Assembly (NCBI GenBank): GCA_018662405.1
Contig: JABJGE010000038.1
Coordinates: forward strand, 1-43,655
Length of the DNA stretch: 43,655 bases
Reading direction: 5' to 3'
From: Campylobacteraceae bacterium
GTDB taxonomy: Bacteria; Campylobacterota; Campylobacteria; Campylobacterales; Arcobacteraceae
The notes under the pieces were generated by a model. It had not been told where the DNA came from and did not search any database. It was given only the letters and a program-made list of their open reading frames with translations. Positions 6,304-24,201 of the stretch are shown piece by piece; positions within the stretch are counted from its first letter, which is position 1; the number at the start of each line of letters is the position of its first letter. A program made the position numbers and the translations under genes.

Positions 6304-6357
6304 ATTCTCTCTCTTATTAATATAGAGATATATTATCGAAAACTCTCTTTTAGTAGT

Positions 6358-7278
6358 CTAAAATCTTTTTGTATATGCGTGACAATATGGCTGTTGATTT
6401 CTTCTTTGATAGTAATCTTGATGATAATCTTCTGCTTTATAAAATACTGTATCTTCATGTAGTTTTGTAGCTAAATTATAACCTTTATTAGTTAATTCAT
6501 TTGCTAATTTTTTTATAACTTCTCTTTCATCTTTCTTACTAGTAAATATTGCAGATAAATACTGTGGTCCAATATCAGGGCCTTGTCCATTTGGCTGTTC
6601 TGGATCATGTATCTCAAAAAATAATTTTACAAGTGTTTCATAATTTACAATTTTTGGATCATATGATACTTCAACAACTTCTAAATGTCCTGTAGTTTTT
6701 GAACAAATTTGTTCATATGTTGGATTTTCAGTATGTCCACCCATATATCCAGATACAGCAGATACAACACCTGGTAATGTTTCAAAATGATATTCTACTC
6801 CCCAAAAACAACCAGCAGCAAAATATGCTTTTTTGTAAGAGTCTGTACCTTTAAAATCAATAGACACAGAATTTACACAATGCCTAGTATTATTAGCAGT
6901 AAATTGCTCCCCTTCAAATACATGTCCTAAATGTCCACCACATGAAGCACATACAATCTCTACTCTTCGCCCATCTGCATCTGGTACTCTTTTTACAGCA
7001 CCATCTATATTGTCATCAAAGCTTGGCCAGCCACAACCACTATTAAATTTTGTATTTGATTTATAAAGTTCGGTATTACACTGTCTACAAGTATAAATTC
7101 CATCACCTTTATGCTCATAAAATTTACCACTATAAGGAGCTTCTGTTCCTTTATGTAAAATTACTCTTTGTTCTTCTTGATTTAATTCATTATATGACAT
7201 ATTCTTTATACCTTTATCATTTGAAAATATTGTAGTTATTATAAGAAAAATACTTGCTAAAAAAATAAACACTTTCAT
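6358..7278 (-). CDS. msrBA: Fused peptide-methionine sulfoxide reductase MsrB-MsrA, with signal peptide
   Basis: The 306-residue protein starts with a hydrophobic signal-like segment (residues 1-19) and then has two domains. MsrB (about 27-143) holds zinc cysteines C64, C67, C110 and C113 and the catalytic RHCVNS (C134). MsrA (about 150-306) holds GCFWGVE with C157. Together they reduce both diastereomers of oxidised methionine. The order B then A is the reverse of the well-known Neisseria-type A-B fusion. The leader implies a periplasmic or secreted repair enzyme, which would need an outside source of electrons that is not in view. An internal ATG at 7200 (Met27), right before the MsrB domain and 11 nt after AAAGG, could give a cytosolic form. 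Confidence 0.93.
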   Translation of the reverse strand: MKVFIFLASIFLIITTIFSNDKGIKNMSYNELNQEEQRVILHKGTEAPYSGKFYEHKGDGIYTCRQCNTELYKSNTKFNSGCGWPSFDDNIDGAVKRVPDADGRRVEIVCASCGGHLGHVFEGEQFTANNTRHCVNSVSIDFKGTDSYKKAYFAAGCFWGVEYHFETLPGVVSAVSGYMGGHTENPTYEQICSKTTGHLEVVEVSYDPKIVNYETLVKLFFEIHDPEQPNGQGPDIGPQYLSAIFTSKKDEREVIKKLANELTNKGYNLATKLHEDTVFYKAEDYHQDYYQRRNQQPYCHAYTKRF

Positions 7279-7320
7279 CTAAAATATACTCTTTACTTTT
7301 CTTTCAGCTTAAACACTAAA

Positions 7321-9099
7321 TTAACCTTGCATCCCTTGGTTTAATCGATTAACTTTTTGATGCTTTGTTTTACAATCTCGCTTAGGAACAATTATCTCTT
7401 TTTGTTTTTCTTTTCTTTTAGTGTCTTTTTCTACAAATATCTTTTTTCTAGTTATTGGATCCATCTCAGTATAATACATAACAGCAGAATAAGTTCCTGG
7501 TGTTGGAGTAAATACTTGTGCTTGTTCTGGTTTCATTTTTAGTTCATGTTGCGTAAACTGTTTTAGATTATGCATATCTTTTTCTTCACATCCTGGGTGT
7601 GCTGCAATTAAATAATATGTTAAAAATTGTTGCTTTCCAGCTTCTTTATTTAATTGGTCATATAATTTTTTAAAATCAATAAGAGTTTGTTTTCCAGGTT
7701 TTCCCATTAAGTCTAATACTTTTTGTTCTGTATGTTCAGGAGCTACTTTCATCTGACCTGATATATGATCATTTACCAATGATTTAAGATATTTATATCC
7801 ATATTTTTTATCTTCTGTAATTAAATCATATCTTATTCCAGATGCAACAAATGCTTTTCTAATACCTGGTATTTCACGAACTTTTTTATTCATATCTATA
7901 ATTCGGCCATGATCTGGTTTCATAGAACTACAAAGATGTTTTGAATCAACACATCTTTGATGATCACATGTTCCTAATTTAAGTTTCTTATCACATTCAT
8001 ATCCATACATATTTGCAGTTGGGCCTCCAAGATCAGAGATAATTCCTTTAAAGTCTTTATACTCTCTAAAATCTTTTGCTTCTTGTACAATTGAATCTTC
8101 ACTTCTTGTACGAATTGTCCTACCTTGATGTACTCCAATAGCACAAAAATTACATTCACCCCAACATCCTTGATGGGTCATAATAGAAAATTTAATAGTT
8201 TCTAAACATTTAACTTTTCCATCTGGTCTATGGTACGGGTGTAATTCTCTTGTAAATGGTAAAGAGGAAACTTGATCCATTTCTTCTTCATTTAAATAAT
8301 CACAAGGTGGATTTTGAATGGCATATCTTGTATCAACAGCTTGACACAAACCTTTTGCTGCTATTGGATCATTATTATCATAAAATAGATCAAAAAGATC
8401 AATATATTTTTCTTTATCATCTAAACATTCTTTAAAAGATGGTAGCTGATGATAATCTTCTACAGATTCTTTTGATATATAACAAATTCCTCTTATATCT
8501 TTATAGTCAGTTTTGTTATTAATTGCAGTAGTTAATTGCATCAATGCAATTTCACCCATTCCATAAATTAAAATATCTGCTTTAGAATCAAATAAAATTG
8601 GCTTTTTTAGTTTATTTTGCCAATAATCATAATGTGTAACTCTTCGTAAACTAGCTTCAATTCCTCCTAATACAATTGGAACTGTATCCTTAAAATATCT
8701 TCTAATTAAATTTGTATAAACTAATACTGCACGATCTGGTCGTTTATTGTTTTTTCCACCAGGAGTATAATCATCACTATTTCTAAATTTCTTTGTAGCA
8801 GTATAGTTAGCAACCATAGAATCAATTGATCCACCACTAACTCCCCAATAAAGTCTTGGTTCACCTAGTCTTTTTATATCCTTGTCACTTTCATAATCAG
8901 GCTGACCAATAATACCAACTTTATATCCAAGTTTTTCAAGCATACGACCAACAACCGCTACACCAATAAATGGACTATCTATATAGGCATCACCACTAAC
9001 TAAGATAACATCACACTGATCCCAACCAAGCTTATCCATTTCTGCTCGTGTCGTAGGAAGAAAAGATGTAGCTAGTGGATTATTGTGATTTTTTTGCAT
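7321..9099 (-). CDS. ygiQ: YgiQ-family radical SAM protein, copy 1
   Basis: This 592-residue protein has the family's N-terminal domain (opening with LGWDQCDVILVSGDAYIDSPFIGVAVVGRML), then a radical SAM core with the cluster motif CWGECNFC (C312, C316, C319). A C-terminal DUF3362-like part includes HPGCEEKDM and TPTPGTYSAVMYYTEMDP. YgiQ proteins resemble radical SAM methylthio- and methyltransferases, but their reaction is unknown. The end is strongly basic and rich in lysine. A TATAAT box on the minus strand at 9130-9135 could serve its own promoter, with AAAGG before the ATG. The upstream gene is a paralogue, so this is a tandem duplication. Confidence 0.9.
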   Translation of the reverse strand: MQKNHNNPLATSFLPTTRAEMDKLGWDQCDVILVSGDAYIDSPFIGVAVVGRMLEKLGYKVGIIGQPDYESDKDIKRLGEPRLYWGVSGGSIDSMVANYTATKKFRNSDDYTPGGKNNKRPDRAVLVYTNLIRRYFKDTVPIVLGGIEASLRRVTHYDYWQNKLKKPILFDSKADILIYGMGEIALMQLTTAINNKTDYKDIRGICYISKESVEDYHQLPSFKECLDDKEKYIDLFDLFYDNNDPIAAKGLCQAVDTRYAIQNPPCDYLNEEEMDQVSSLPFTRELHPYHRPDGKVKCLETIKFSIMTHQGCWGECNFCAIGVHQGRTIRTRSEDSIVQEAKDFREYKDFKGIISDLGGPTANMYGYECDKKLKLGTCDHQRCVDSKHLCSSMKPDHGRIIDMNKKVREIPGIRKAFVASGIRYDLITEDKKYGYKYLKSLVNDHISGQMKVAPEHTEQKVLDLMGKPGKQTLIDFKKLYDQLNKEAGKQQFLTYYLIAAHPGCEEKDMHNLKQFTQHELKMKPEQAQVFTPTPGTYSAVMYYTEMDPITRKKIFVEKDTKRKEKQKEIIVPKRDCKTKHQKVNRLNQGMQG

Positions 9100-18793: not shown

Positions 18794-20128
18794 TTATAAG
18801 TAAAACCGCCAATAAATTAAAGCCATACATGTAATAGTAATTATTCCTAATACATTAAATACAAATCCAATACTTGCCATATCTTTTACCTTTACAACTC
18901 CACTACTCATAGCTATTGCATTTGGTGGAGTTGCAATAGGAAGCATAAAGGCATAACTAGCACAGATAGTTGCAACCATAAGTAATAGAGTTATATCAAT
19001 ATTACTAGCTTGTGCAAGAGAATATATAATTGGTAAAGCAATTGAGATAAGTGCTGTATTTGATGTAATTTCTGTAGTAAATGTAATTAATGTTGCAGTA
19101 ATTAGTATTAGAAATAATGTAGAAAATGATGTAATTGCTAATAATCGTGTTGCAATTTCATTTGCCAAACCCGTACTTGAAAATGCCATAGCAATAGAAA
19201 ATCCTGCTCCAAATAAAAATATAATCTCATAAGGAATTTTTTTTGTATCTTCCCATTCTAAAAAGCCAATATTTGGAATAAACATTAATAATCCAAAGCC
19301 AAGAAGTATACCTTTTTCATTTAATCCTAATCCAGAATAATATGGCTCAATAGATGAATTTAATAATAGTACTACTACTAATCCTAACAATATATATATT
19401 AATCTTTTTTGTTCTTTATTTACGACTGACGTATCAGTAATATCAAAATCAAACTTTATTTTATTAACCCCTATAGATAAAATATATGGCATTATTAATA
19501 ACATTACTGCTGCCAGAGGTACAGTTAAAGCCATCCATTTAATAAATGAAATACTTTGGAGTGCATTTGTTTCCAAGAATCCTAATAAAAGTAAATTTGG
19601 AGCTGTTCCTATAGGTGTAATAATTCCACCCATACTAGCTCCATAAGCAACAGCTAAAACCAATCTCATTTTTAATTTTAGATCATCAGTAAGATAAAGT
19701 GCTATTGGCACTAAAAGTAATGCAGTAGTTGTATTTGCAATAAGTGAACTTAATAAAGCTGCAGTAATAGATAATGAGTACATAACACCTCTAGGCGTTG
19801 AAGGGAATATTGCTAATAATTTATGTGCTATAACTTTATGTAAATCTATTTTTTGTGTAGCTATTGCTAACATAAATCCACCTAAAAATAAAAATATAAT
19901 AGATTTAGAATAGTTTGATGTTGTGGCGTTCGTTGAGGCAATATCAAATATTGGAAATAATAATATAGGAAGTAATGATACAACACCTAATGGTAAGCCT
20001 TCATTAGTCCATAATGTAACTAAAAATACAACTATTGATATTAATAATGAATGTTGAATATTAAAACCTAAGTTGGCTATAAAAAAAGTGATAAATGATA
20101 GTAAAAATGATATAAAAATTTTATTCAA
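18794..20128 (-). CDS. SLC13/DASS family anion (dicarboxylate- or sulfate-type) symporter
   Basis: The protein is polytopic, with the duplicated SNT substrate/sodium motifs of the family: IANTTTALLLVPIAL in the first half and ITSNTALISIALPI in the second. It also has the C-terminal SLC13 signature region YAFMLPIATPPNAIAMSSG. These carriers import dicarboxylates, sulfate or related anions with sodium. The substrate is not readable here. Start choice: I favour the TTG at 20128 (444 residues), which follows AAGGA by 7 nt. ATG at 20158 (454 residues) has no ribosome site and lies a few bases after a TATAAT box. It lies downstream of a short transcript unit that follows the two-component operon, so regulation by that system is plausible. 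Confidence 0.86.
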   Translation of the reverse strand: MNKIFISFLLSFITFFIANLGFNIQHSLLISIVVFLVTLWTNEGLPLGVVSLLPILLFPIFDIASTNATTSNYSKSIIFLFLGGFMLAIATQKIDLHKVIAHKLLAIFPSTPRGVMYSLSITAALLSSLIANTTTALLLVPIALYLTDDLKLKMRLVLAVAYGASMGGIITPIGTAPNLLLLGFLETNALQSISFIKWMALTVPLAAVMLLIMPYILSIGVNKIKFDFDITDTSVVNKEQKRLIYILLGLVVVLLLNSSIEPYYSGLGLNEKGILLGFGLLMFIPNIGFLEWEDTKKIPYEIIFLFGAGFSIAMAFSSTGLANEIATRLLAITSFSTLFLILITATLITFTTEITSNTALISIALPIIYSLAQASNIDITLLLMVATICASYAFMLPIATPPNAIAMSSGVVKVKDMASIGFVFNVLGIITITCMALIYWRFYL

Positions 20129-20170
20129 TGTAAATTCCTTGTATGGTAAATTTAGCATAAGTATTCTTAT

Positions 20171-20176
20171 ATTATA
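20171..20176 (-). promoter_or_regulatory. Candidate -10 box (TATAAT) of the SLC13 transporter
   Basis: A minus-strand TATAAT sits just after the T-run of the intrinsic terminator. It would start transcription near 20164, giving a leader of about 36 nt to the TTG at 20128. It offers the transporter a promoter of its own, separate from any read-through past the terminator. Confidence 0.4.
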
Positions 20177-20181
20177 CAAAT

Positions 20182-20220
20182 AAAAAAAGAGCTGCCCAAG
20201 GAAGTAAGCAACTCTTTTTT
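20182..20220 (-). terminator. Intrinsic terminator after the two-component operon / putative small RNA
   Basis: On the minus strand, arms AGAGTTGC (20215-20208) and GCAGCTCT (20195-20188) form an 8-bp stem with one G-U pair and a 12-nt loop UUACUUCCUUGG, followed by at least six U. A-runs precede it, so it may also stop plus-strand transcripts, but with one mismatch in that direction. Confidence 0.8.
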
Positions 20221-20252
20221 TATTTTATTGGTTTCGCGCCGTTAAATTTCAT
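20183..20252 (-). ncRNA. Putative small RNA or attenuated leader controlled by the adjacent response regulator
   Basis: A TATAAT at 20264-20259 predicts a start near 20252, and the strong intrinsic terminator ends the transcript near 20183, about 70 nt. The promoter carries the same pair of 11-bp repeats at the same 5-nt distance from -10 as the response regulator promoter. The RNA would contain an unusual GGCGCG run for this AT-rich genome. The terminator loop UUACUUCCUUGG is complementary to Shine-Dalgarno sequences, like the C/U-rich terminator loop that H. pylori RepG uses for targeting. It also encodes a 10-codon ORF (MKFNGAKPIK) beginning at the predicted first base. Alternatives are a leader peptide with attenuation of the SLC13 gene, or simply the tail of the kinase mRNA. 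The elements are seen. The small RNA itself is inference. Confidence 0.42.
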
Positions 20253-20258
20253 AGTGTA

Positions 20259-20291
20259 ATTATAAAAGATGAAAATGAAATGAGAATGAAA
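20259..20291 (-). promoter_or_regulatory. Response-regulator-type promoter: two 11-bp direct repeats plus -10, site 2
   Basis: On the minus strand, TTTCATTCTCA (20291-20281) is followed at once by TTTCATTTTCA (20280-20270), 10 of 11 bases identical. Then come 5 nt and TATAAT (20264-20259). The 11-bp period is that of tandem sites for OmpR/PhoB-family regulators, and the repeats cover the -35 position, as expected for an activator. The first repeat begins within a few bases of the kinase stop codon. Confidence 0.6.
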
Positions 20292-20293
20292 TA

Positions 20294-21631
20294 CTAAAAT
20301 AGTATTTCAATTTTTGTACCTTTTTGCTCTTCTGATGATATTTTCATATCACCATTATGAAGAAATACACTATTTTGGACAATACTAAGACCCAATCCAA
20401 AGCCTTTTACTTTCTTATTTCTTGAAGGGTCTACTCTATAAAATCTTTTGGTAATTTTATTTAAATGCTTTTCTTCCATACCTATACCAGTATCCTCAAT
20501 AATAAAATGAATATTATCATCTTCATAAAGAGAAATATTAATATTTGTATTCTCTTTGGAATATTTAATTGCATTATCTATTAAATTTGAAAATACAGTT
20601 GCAATAAGAACAGAATTTGCATTCATCTGTATAGGATTAAGTTTTTCTATATTTAATTTAATATTTTTGATTTTTACTTGGTTTTTAAATTTATCTATAG
20701 TATTTAATAAAATACTATCTAAACTAATCACATCAAAAGTTTGTTCAATATTTTCTTTTGTATATTTTGTAAGTAAGAGTAAATTATCTACTATTTCAGT
20801 TATTGTTCGAGCTTCATTATCTATTGTTTTTAAACTTTTTTCATAATATTTAGGATCTCTTATTTTATTTAGAGTAATTTCTACTTCACCTCTAATTACT
20901 GTAAGTGGTGTTTTTAATTCATGAGAAACATCACTATTAAATTGTTCTAAATGTTCTACACCATCTTTAAGTCTAATAATCATTTTATTAAAGGAATCTA
21001 CTAGTTCTTTAATCTCATCATCATATTTAGGTTGTGGAATCTCTTTTGAAAAGTTATTAACATATATTTCATTTGCAGTACTTGTAATATCTTTAATAGA
21101 TCTTAAAATTTTATCAACTAGCCTACTTGCTAACAATAGTAATAATATAAATAATACCGGTTCTAAAATTATCAATATTTGTTTTATTTGCTTAAATTCT
21201 TTAGTTATCTCTTCATCAACATTGTATTGATAAAATAAAATTGCACCTTTAAATGGATTTGATACTCTTAAAATATACATACCATTTAAACTATTATCTC
21301 TATTAAATACAAAGAAAGAATCATCTTTTTTTATAAATTCTAAATAGTTATCAAATTCTACTTTACCTTTTTTAAATATTATTTTATTTTCTTTTACAAT
21401 AGCAACATCCAAAGTTTTTAATTCTTCTGCTTCAAATAGTTTATCTATAGATACATTATTAATAATTTTTTTATTAATAAATACTGCTTTATCATATAAT
21501 TTATTTTGAATACTTAGTTTTGTGTTTTGTTCAAGAAAGTAATATAAAGCCCAATTAAAAAGAAATAGAGTTATTAGCGTTGATAAAGCAAACCAAAATA
21601 ATACTTTTGTTTTAAGACTATTAAACTTCAA
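20294..21631 (-). CDS. Sensor histidine kinase of an OmpR-class two-component system
   Basis: The 445-residue kinase has a first membrane helix at about 11-33, an extracytoplasmic sensor of about 115 residues, a second helix at about 150-168, and a HAMP domain to about 220. The dimerisation/phosphoacceptor motif is FNSDVSHELKTPLTVIRGEVEI, with the histidine near 237. The ATPase domain shows N-box FSNLIDNAIKYSKEN, DTGIGM and GFGLGLSIVQ. The periplasmic part resembles no sensor domain I can name. The start is TTG, 7 nt after AGGA, and overlaps the response regulator gene by 11 bp, so the pair is translationally coupled. The stimulus is unknown. The linked anion transporter hints at, but does not prove, a link to its substrate. 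Confidence 0.92.
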   Translation of the reverse strand: MKFNSLKTKVLFWFALSTLITLFLFNWALYYFLEQNTKLSIQNKLYDKAVFINKKIINNVSIDKLFEAEELKTLDVAIVKENKIIFKKGKVEFDNYLEFIKKDDSFFVFNRDNSLNGMYILRVSNPFKGAILFYQYNVDEEITKEFKQIKQILIILEPVLFILLLLLASRLVDKILRSIKDITSTANEIYVNNFSKEIPQPKYDDEIKELVDSFNKMIIRLKDGVEHLEQFNSDVSHELKTPLTVIRGEVEITLNKIRDPKYYEKSLKTIDNEARTITEIVDNLLLLTKYTKENIEQTFDVISLDSILLNTIDKFKNQVKIKNIKLNIEKLNPIQMNANSVLIATVFSNLIDNAIKYSKENTNINISLYEDDNIHFIIEDTGIGMEEKHLNKITKRFYRVDPSRNKKVKGFGLGLSIVQNSVFLHNGDMKISSEEQKGTKIEILF

Positions 21632-22277
21632 CTTTGTATCCTAAACCCCTAGAACTTGAAATAAATTCTTTTCCTATTTTCTTCCTAAGGTTATAAATTG
21701 TTACTTGGATTACATTACTATTAATGTAGTCATCATAATTCCATAATTGATCTTCAATCATAATATTTGATACTGGTGTATTTTTATGCTTAATCAGAAA
21801 TAATAGTAGTTCATATTCTTTTTGAGTTAATACTAAAGGTTCATTATCTTTACTTACAACTTTTGTATTTATATCTATTATTAAATTTTTAATATGTATT
21901 GTATTATCACTTTGAGATAGTGATCTTCTATATAGTGCTTGAACCCTTGCATTTAATTCTTTAAAACTAAATGGTTTACTCAAGTAGTCATCAGCTCCAA
22001 TATTTAAAGCTGATACTTTATCATCAATTTCACTTTTAGCAGTAAGCATGATTGTAGGAGTTGATATTTTTTGATTTCTAAGAGTAGATAGTATTTCCAT
22101 ACCATCTTTCATAGGGAGCATCCAGTCTAATATGATAAGATCATAAGTATTGACTGTGGCTAAGTATTCGCCATCTTCTCCATTTGTAGCAGTATCAATA
22201 ATATATCCATCTTCTTCAAAACCTCGTTTTAAAAAAGATAAAATATTTTCATCATCTTCAATGATAAGAATTTTCAT
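21621..22277 (-). CDS. OmpR/PhoB-family response regulator
   Basis: The 218-residue regulator has a receiver domain (1-118) with EDD at 7-9, the phosphoacceptor Asp51 in LDWMLP, and the conserved Lys in LSKPFSFKEL near 101. A winged-helix trans_reg_C domain follows (about 125-218, LTQKEYELLLFLIKHKNTPVSNIMIEDQLW ... VIQVTIYNLRKKIG). Such dimers bind tandem 11-bp half-sites head to tail. Exactly that arrangement is found in its own promoter and again after the kinase gene. The ATG follows AGGA by 7 nt. The kinase gene overlaps its end. Confidence 0.95.
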   Translation of the reverse strand: MKILIIEDDENILSFLKRGFEEDGYIIDTATNGEDGEYLATVNTYDLIILDWMLPMKDGMEILSTLRNQKISTPTIMLTAKSEIDDKVSALNIGADDYLSKPFSFKELNARVQALYRRSLSQSDNTIHIKNLIIDINTKVVSKDNEPLVLTQKEYELLLFLIKHKNTPVSNIMIEDQLWNYDDYINSNVIQVTIYNLRKKIGKEFISSSRGLGYKVEV

Positions 22278-22301
22278 AAAATTTCCTAATAAATTTTAGT
22301 A

Positions 22302-22334
22302 ATTCTAGTCAATCAAAATGAAATAAGAATGAAG
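22302..22334 (-). promoter_or_regulatory. Response-regulator-type promoter: two 11-bp direct repeats plus -10, site 1 (autoregulatory)
   Basis: On the minus strand, CTTCATTCTTA (22334-22324) and TTTCATTTTGA (22323-22313) are adjacent 11-bp repeats. Five nt later comes TAGAAT (22307-22302), then the response regulator ATG at 22277. Sequence, period and distance to -10 match site 2 at 20259-20291. Positive autoregulation by the encoded OmpR-family protein is the simplest reading. Confidence 0.6.
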
Positions 22335-22335
22335 A

Positions 22336-24201
22336 CTAGTCTCTTCTTCTACGACTTCCATCACGACCACCGTCTCGACCTCGTCCTCCGCCATCACGAT
22401 CTCCTCGACCTCGACCACCATCACGACTTCTTCCTCGACCACCGTCTCGATCTCCTCGGCCTCTACCACCATCACGACTTCTTCCTCGACCACCGTCTCG
22501 ACCTCGTCCTCCGCCGTCACGATCACCTCGACCTCTTCCTCTTGGTTCATTTGCTGCTTCACCAGGTATTGCATCTTTAAGATCTAATCTTTTACCTGAT
22601 ACCATTACATTTACTAAAATATCTTTCTTTTCATCAGATAAGTTATCTGGTAAATCAACAGTTGAAAAACTACTATAAATAGCAATTTTAGCTATATCAT
22701 TTGAATCAATCTTAGCTTCATTTGCAATAGCACCTACTAGGTTACCTGGCTTAACTCTATCTTTTTCACCTACAGAAACTCTATATCTAGCAAAACCATC
22801 TCTAATTGCTGGCTCACTAAATTCTCTAGGCTCACCTCTTCCACCTCTGTCTCCGCCATTATTATCATAATCAACTTTTTGTTCTTTAAAGTCTTTTAAT
22901 CTTAAAGGATCACCTTTTCTAGCAATTTTAACTAACGCTGCAGCAATCTCTTCTGCTGGAACATTATGTTCATTTTGGTATGATTCAATAATTTGAGTAT
23001 AGTATTCTAAACCTTCTTGTGCTAATTCATCAGTGATTTGCTGTTTAAATTTAGCAACTCTTGTATTATTAACATCTTCTGTTGATGGCATTTCCATTCT
23101 ATCAATTGGTTTTTTAGTAGCTCTTTCAATCATTCTTAAAAGATTTCTCTCTCTTGGAGATACAAAAAGAATCGCCTCACCTTTTTTACCAGCACGACCT
23201 GTTCTACCAATTCTATGTACATAAGACTCAGTATCATATGGAATATCATAGTTAATTACATGTGAAATTCTATTAATATCAAGCCCACGAGCAACAATAT
23301 CTGTACCAATTAAGATATCTAATTTACCTTTTTTTAATTGATTTACAGTTTTTTCTCTTTGTGCTTGATTCATATCACCATTAAGTCCAGCTGCTGCATA
23401 ACCTCTAGCATTTAGTTTATCTTGAAGCTCTAAAGTCATTGATTTTGTTCTTACAAAAATAATAATTCCATCGTAATCTTCAACTTCTAAAATTCTTGTA
23501 AGTGCATCAACTTTATGTAATCCACTTACCATCCAGAATCTTTGTCTGATTGTTTCTGCTGTAGTAACTTTCATTTTAATAATTACTTCTGCTGGATCAT
23601 TTAAATATCTTTGAGTAATTTTTTTAATTGCTGTTGGCATTGTTGCACTAAATAATGCAATTTGTCTATCCTCAGGAGTATGCTTTAATACCCATTCAAC
23701 ATCATCAAGGAATCCCATATTAAGCATCTCATCTGCTTCATCAAGTACCATAGTTTTAAGTTCATCAATTACTAATGTACCTTTTTTAATATGATCCATA
23801 ACTCGCCCTGGAGTTCCTACTATTACTTGTGGATTTCTCTTAAGTCCTCTTAGTTGAATACCATAATCTTGACCACCATATATTGGTAATACATGGAAAC
23901 CATTCATATGTTTTGAATAACCTTGGAAAGATTCTGCAACTTGTATTGCAAGTTCTCTTGTTGGTGCAAGTACTAATACTTGTGGTTTTTTAATTTTTAA
24001 ATCAATTCTTGAAAGAATTGGTAATGCGAATGCTGCTGTTTTACCTGTACCAGTTTGTGCTTGCCCTAATACATCACGACCATCTAATACATGAGGAATC
24101 ATTCCTGCTTGAATTGGAGATGGAGAATCATATCCTACTTCTTCAATTGCTTTTAATACATCAGGAGCTAATCCTAATTCGCTAAATTTTATATCTGTCA
24201 A
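22336..24201 (-). CDS. deaD: DEAD-box RNA helicase with RGG-rich repeat tail (DeaD/CsdA type)
   Basis: The 621-residue helicase carries the Q motif (FSELGLAPDVLKAIEEVGYDSPSPIQ), motif I AQTGTGKT (48-55), motif II DEAD near 153-156, SAT, and the C-terminal RGLDINRISHVINYD and HRIGRTGRAG. A DbpA/CsdA-like RNA-binding domain follows (around 478-550, YRVSVGEKDRVKPGNLVGAIANEA). The last 70 or so residues are made only of Arg, Gly, Asp and a few Ser. This RGG/RDGG tail is coded by GC-rich repeats. DeaD proteins unwind RNA in ribosome assembly and mRNA decay, especially in the cold. The start is TTG, with AAAAGGT upstream. The protein is cytosolic. The tail probably adds nonspecific RNA binding. Confidence 0.95.
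   Translation of the reverse strand: MTDIKFSELGLAPDVLKAIEEVGYDSPSPIQAGMIPHVLDGRDVLGQAQTGTGKTAAFALPILSRIDLKIKKPQVLVLAPTRELAIQVAESFQGYSKHMNGFHVLPIYGGQDYGIQLRGLKRNPQVIVGTPGRVMDHIKKGTLVIDELKTMVLDEADEMLNMGFLDDVEWVLKHTPEDRQIALFSATMPTAIKKITQRYLNDPAEVIIKMKVTTAETIRQRFWMVSGLHKVDALTRILEVEDYDGIIIFVRTKSMTLELQDKLNARGYAAAGLNGDMNQAQREKTVNQLKKGKLDILIGTDIVARGLDINRISHVINYDIPYDTESYVHRIGRTGRAGKKGEAILFVSPRERNLLRMIERATKKPIDRMEMPSTEDVNNTRVAKFKQQITDELAQEGLEYYTQIIESYQNEHNVPAEEIAAALVKIARKGDPLRLKDFKEQKVDYDNNGGDRGGRGEPREFSEPAIRDGFARYRVSVGEKDRVKPGNLVGAIANEAKIDSNDIAKIAIYSSFSTVDLPDNLSDEKKDILVNVMVSGKRLDLKDAIPGEAANEPRGRGRGDRDGGGRGRDGGRGRSRDGGRGRGDRDGGRGRSRDGGRGRGDRDGGGRGRDGGRDGSRRRRD
22345..22560 (-). repeat. GC-rich imperfect tandem repeats encoding the RGG/RDGG tail of DeaD
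   Basis: A 51-bp unit (17 residues, around GRGRSRDGGRGRGDRDG) is seen at 22414-22464 and again from 22465, with degenerate copies on both sides. GC content is far above that of the surrounding sequence, and all frames are open here on both strands, which produces spurious ORFs. Such repeats can change length by slippage or recombination. Confidence 0.8.

Follow-up and report, generated by a model that had tools for sequence, protein, structure and literature searches.

The described systems closest to the locus analysed here include: (i) PmrA/BasR of enterobacteria, (ii) DccRS of Campylobacter jejuni, (iii) the OmpR-EnvZ-controlled small RNAs MicF and OmrA/OmrB, and (iv) the small RNA RepG of Helicobacter pylori. 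PmrA/BasR is autoregulated, a likeness to the system proposed here. It is likewise an OmpR/PhoB-family regulator, and the PmrA box is composed of two 6-bp half-sites arranged head-to-tail 5 bp apart, whose bases are proposed to be read by His193 and His195 (PMC3973317). The eptA-type and dgkA genes predicted as targets in relatives of the genome under study resemble those of PmrA; the two systems differ in the half-site (CTTAAT in PmrA, TTTCAT here), in residues 193 and 195 (His/His in PmrA, Thr/Tyr here) and in that a small RNA is predicted here to be a main target. The DccRS box is reportedly WTTCAC-N6-TTCACW, with the 11-bp period and TTCA core of the boxes described below, and we know of no small-RNA target of DccRS. 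Similarly to the system here, DccRS is an OmpR-family system of the Campylobacterota, and it activates genes of periplasmic and membrane proteins (review PMC9449129).

MicF and OmrA/OmrB are induced by a two-component regulator, pair with mRNAs of outer-membrane proteins close to their start and occur as twin or multiple copies, features that recur or are predicted here (review PMC12692685). Their sequence is unrelated to that of the small RNA of this locus, which differs also in position, as it is encoded where the operon locus of its own regulator ends. The Hfq protein on which this OmpR-type class depends was detected in none of six genomes of the group, while positive controls were detected; C. 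jejuni is likewise without Hfq (PMC8687705). RepG resembles the small RNA here as a Campylobacterota small RNA that resides beside a response-regulator gene and has a C/U-rich terminator loop (PMC8295292). By contrast, the RepG loop contacts a G-repeat in the tlpB leader (PMC8295292), whereas the small RNA of this locus is predicted to make its main contact through the 5' end, a porin being the predicted target and a Shine-Dalgarno sequence the predicted partner of the loop (UUCCUU).

The window (the whole stretch of DNA analysed, 43,655 bp) includes a two-component operon with a 22-bp box at each end (Table 1). An earlier first-pass annotation described the boxes as two pairs of head-to-tail 11-bp repeats on the minus strand (20291-20270 and 22334-22313), the second repeat ending 5 nt before TATAAT or TAGAAT, and the sequence agrees on each point. 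Both boxes are of the TTTCAT-N5-TTTCAT type. Box B starts 2 nt past the kinase stop codon and box A 1 nt past that of an upstream DEAD-box helicase gene. The 3' end of the helicase gene (window 22336-22560) codes for a repetitive Arg-Gly-rich tail, and the long overlapping ORFs on both strands of this interval are repeat artefacts.

Table 1. Features of the two-component operon, its boxes and the small RNA locus (window coordinates).
Feature	Coordinates	Strand	Remarks
Box A	22313..22334	-	CTTCATTCTTA TTTCATTTTGA; predicted response-regulator site, operon's own promoter
-10 hexamer TAGAAT	22302..22307	-	5 nt past box A (spacer TTGAC); expected start ~22295
OmpR/PhoB-family response regulator, 218 aa, PmrA/BasR-like	21621..22277	-	PF00072 and PF00486; BasR among best solved relatives
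Membrane sensor histidine kinase with HAMP, HisKA and HATPase_c	20294..21631	-	Overlaps regulator gene
Box B	20270..20291	-	TTTCATTCTCA TTTCATTTTCA; predicted response-regulator site, small-RNA promoter
-10 hexamer TATAAT	20259..20264	-	5 nt past box B (spacer TCTTT); expected start ~20252
Small RNA gene, ~75 nt, ending in intrinsic terminator	20181..20254	-	Model R1
5' seed UAUGAAAUUUAAC	20241..20253	-	Most conserved part of the RNA; complementary to porin leader
Terminator hairpin and U tract	20178..20225	-	-23.8 kcal/mol, z -4.8; loop with UUCCUU
DASS-family anion symporter, next gene	18794..20179	-	TIGR00785; after terminator

The assignment of the regulator to the OmpR/PhoB family, as had been claimed for the operon between the boxes, is borne out by a receiver domain and a Trans_reg_C winged helix (PF00072 and PF00486, both above cut-off), as well as by the tandem half-sites, which repeat every 11 bp ahead of a -10. 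With the NCBIfam PmrA/BasR equivalog (NF007928) the regulator scores 207 bits, below the cut-off of 330, and neither the CTTAA(T/G) half-site nor the His193/His195 pair of PmrA is found. Instead, Thr193 and Tyr195 of the recognition helix are present in the window protein and in every 218-residue orthologue checked, with the exception of one Phe195 (L047), in line with the different half-site. Thus, the regulator is predicted to work like PmrA without being its equivalog.

In the mechanism proposed, the two boxes would serve as tandem half-sites for a dimer of the regulator encoded between them. The kinase would phosphorylate the regulator, which would bind each box in place of a -35 element and activate, rather than repress, transcription from (i) its own operon promoter, in a positive feedback, and (ii) the small-RNA promoter just past the kinase stop. 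The 5' seed of the small RNA, (U/C)GAAAUUUAAC, would pair in the cell with the porin mRNA ~34 nt upstream of its start codon and repress the porin, probably aided by a second contact of the CCUU terminator loop with the porin Shine-Dalgarno sequence. The system would act on the envelope mainly through the small RNA in its own genome, and in relatives the regulator would also directly activate genes for lipid A and the envelope (eptA-pap2-dgkA, PAP2 and PepSY proteins). As judged from sequence comparison, this mechanism as a whole, a regulator-driven operon and a small RNA that represses a porin, is reasonably likely.

The porin is a probable target of the small RNA on the basis of complementarity. 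In five RNA-bearing genomes (G000, the genome of the window, and G011, G013, G096 and G112), the complement of the seed (GTTAAATTTCG) is located upstream of a porin-like gene, at this distance (~34 nt) from its start codon. By seed pairing, the porin of the window genome ranks first of 421 start regions, a sample of only about a third of that genome (-21.1 kcal/mol versus -13.8 for the next; mean -6.5, s.d. 2.4), and the G011 porin ranks first of 403 sampled G011 start regions; since the porin stretches were sampled because of their seed match, these ranks indicate distinctness and not unbiased discovery. Cognate seeds pair better than swapped seeds, with an equally good result in 2 of 120 permutations. 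Genome-wide, the number of near matches to the complement of the seed does not exceed that of a reversed control. The porin protein of G096 matches Campylo_MOMP, and that of the window genome is a weak full-length homologue of this MOMP-type porin (25%, E 2e-5); both genes adjoin a CTP synthase gene. The G096 locus has the small RNA gene flanked by the kinase gene and the porin gene, the latter convergent with the small RNA, kinase and regulator genes. A covariation between the terminator loop and the Shine-Dalgarno sequence, while striking by eye, was set aside, as no cognate preference is apparent (15 of 120 permutations), and pairing of the loop with the Shine-Dalgarno sequence does not stand out in the window genome (rank 176 of 421 start regions).

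It is unlikely, in our estimate, that the boxes and small RNA are real and the porin is not a target, the leader element serving another regulator instead, as a palindrome in DNA or RNA. The element (AATTTCGAAATT) is a palindrome whose conservation extends past the paired stretch; it is present in six genomes of genus g7 in which box-driven RNA was not detected and, thus, is not strictly tied to the small RNA. Set against this reading are the first rank of the porin in two genomes and two features of the pairing itself: the window genome has a compensatory change (AACG in the small RNA and CGTT in the leader, compared to AACA and TGTT elsewhere), and the third small RNA copy of G112 pairs with the porin leader over 19 nt, a G112-specific GG included. 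In g7, moreover, the same seed sits in other transcripts: TonB-receptor leaders begin with it, downstream of an 11-bp repeat of the TTAACA type, and it also follows OMP genes, immediately ahead of terminators. Either other regulators have taken up the seed, or the leader element serves an additional function.

Among these transcripts, the TonB-dependent receptor leaders at L308, L312, L320 and L324 (genus g7 and G029) start with CGAAATTTAACAA right past the -10 and, hence, have their 5' end in common with the small RNA; the 11-bp repeat that precedes them is TTAACAATCAATTAACA, a second regulator motif unlike the box. At L310:1500, L323:1500 and L321:794 (reverse strand), CGAAATTTAACA is followed by a terminator hairpin, in two cases just past outer-membrane-like genes, and these sites may give rise to small RNAs that derive from 3' UTRs and share the seed.

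The first-pass annotation viewed box B as a separate promoter after the kinase stop, which is supported, and left its product open; a terminated small RNA, previously undescribed, is very probably what box B switches on. The distance from the -10 (20264-20259) to a strong hairpin with U tract is ~80 nt, and this hairpin is ahead of the DASS symporter gene. That box B drives the symporter, with the hairpin as a leader attenuator and not the end of a free small RNA, appears improbable: the symporter is on the same strand and starts close behind the terminator, but relatives keep the RNA element while the neighbour changes (ribD-like in G011 C10; convergent in G013, G011 C5 and G096), and stand-alone RNA copies are found at other places, several per genome. 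Box B, thus, probably has a main product other than the symporter.

The small RNA is conserved in other Arcobacteraceae with the 5' seed UACGAAAUUUAAC and CCUU in the loop; the loop sequence UUCCUU is complementary to the Shine-Dalgarno sequence AAGGAA. Two copies in G011 and one each in G027 and G013 have the same 5' end, GUACGAAAUUUAACAA; the linker behind it varies, and the terminator that follows has CCUU in its loop. Terminator z scores are -3.6 to -5.4 in four of five copies. A covariance model of these four copies (R1), from which promoter sequence and the window copy were left out, recovers the window copy (24.3 bits, E 0.04, 249 kb searched) and finds new strong matches in G112 (two), G027 (a second copy) and G096, all with a box and -10 upstream. 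As R1 was built without promoter sequence, the boxes at its new matches provide independent confirmation of box and RNA. A third G112 copy, spotted by eye beside another, also has a box and -10; the three copies of G112 (C68) are located within ~2.4 kb (L255, ~6340-8700), and a separate box-like sequence and -10 accompany each of them. Weak R1 matches in genus g11 are inside coding sequence (VIGNLTRDI, probably an Ssb-type gene) and are discounted as chance. A peptide reading of ATGAAATTTAAC in the window was likewise rejected, since relatives have ACG in place of ATG, which excludes the peptide as a conserved feature. No matching family is found in Rfam, where the best of the chance-level matches scores 24.9 bits versus a gathering cut-off of 54.

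The boxes are almost certainly binding sites of the regulator encoded between them, as conservation and co-occurrence suggest, and both the motif and its assignment to this regulator are held with high confidence. The consensus TTTCATTTTCA TTTCATTTTCA-N5-TATAAT recurs around orthologous operons of Arcobacteraceae, Poseidonibacter, Sulfurimonas, Sulfurospirillum and Nitratifractor assemblies. By a strict definition, 21 sites are found in 13 of 19 orthologue loci (mean of 0.05 in shuffled loci), compared to none at 83 control loci around other OmpR-type regulators. The strict motif is present in seven of 60 relatives, all among the eight with an orthologue of the regulator. The claim that the repeats form the binding motif of this regulator is, hence, strongly supported, and the loss of the repeats where the operon is kept, which had been named as evidence against it, is not what is seen: sites recur at orthologous operons across the Campylobacterota. 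A different OmpR-family regulator, such as the paralogue at G000 C74, is very unlikely to own the boxes. The promoter of this paralogue also has a TTCAT-N6-TTCAT-like site (G000 C74:9132-9163) and, thus, related regulators may share half-sites; strict sites nevertheless track the orthologue, with none at 22 paralogous response-regulator loci and none in the 52 relatives without it. The paralogue, a second OmpR-family regulator of the window genome (47% identical), has TTCATCTCTTATTCAT and TATTAT upstream (L181), and the same arrangement is noted at G011 C6:157266.

Boxes are placed directly before the regulator gene in L034, L039, L042, L045 and L176, which fits autoregulation and supports the earlier view of box A as the operon's own promoter. 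The slot just after the kinase also holds a box in G011, G013, G005, G032, G096, L042 and L050, and its cargo varies from the small RNA to eptA or other envelope genes and an HD-domain gene. Boxes precede eptA-pap2-dgkA operons in G005 and G011; none was seen before eptA-type lipid A genes in a motif scan of the whole draft genome of the window. Two further arrangements are of note: at L175:5810-5868, two boxes lie back to back between divergent genes, one for a PAP2 phosphatase and the other for a small secreted protein, and at L185:4517-4640 (G011 C10:37517), a box and TATAAT precede a gene-free stretch of ~110 nt with a strong terminator, which is likely to be another small RNA of this regulon, distinct from the first.

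The pattern TTCAT-N6-TTCAT-N10-TANAAT has exactly two matches in the window, boxes A and B, while dinucleotide shuffles of the window average 0.01 matches, with at least two in 0 of 100 shuffles. A longer pattern with up to three mismatches still yields only boxes A and B in the window and, in the genome-wide scan that had been proposed (1.31-Mb draft genome), these two and a single 3-mismatch site, compared to none for the reversed control. A loose TTCAT-N0-16-TTCAT scan is uninformative. The idea that the boxes are chance repeats of an AT-rich genome, in which such loosely spaced TTCAT pairs are common (433), has a negligible probability and is refuted by conservation as well as by these scan counts against their controls. 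As the direct regulon of their own genome seems to consist of little beyond boxes A and B, the earlier description of them as the "first two targets" of the system, while correct in naming them, is an understatement.

These findings provide an uncharacterised two-component system with a predicted binding motif, a predicted phylum-wide regulon and a predicted small RNA with a named target. To our knowledge, few trans-acting small RNAs of the Campylobacterota have known regulators. More tentatively, an Hfq-independent family of sibling small RNAs may, in Arcobacteraceae, be the main output of a PmrAB-like system; in small genomes the direct regulon may have shrunk to operon and RNA, with the RNA silencing the main porin through its leader, and possibly through its loop on the ribosome-binding site, and the seed may have been re-used in TonB-receptor leaders and OMP 3' ends of a sister genus. 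The results suggest that the wiring known from enterobacteria, in which an envelope sensor acts through a small RNA on a porin, also arose in the Campylobacterota, where Hfq is missing.
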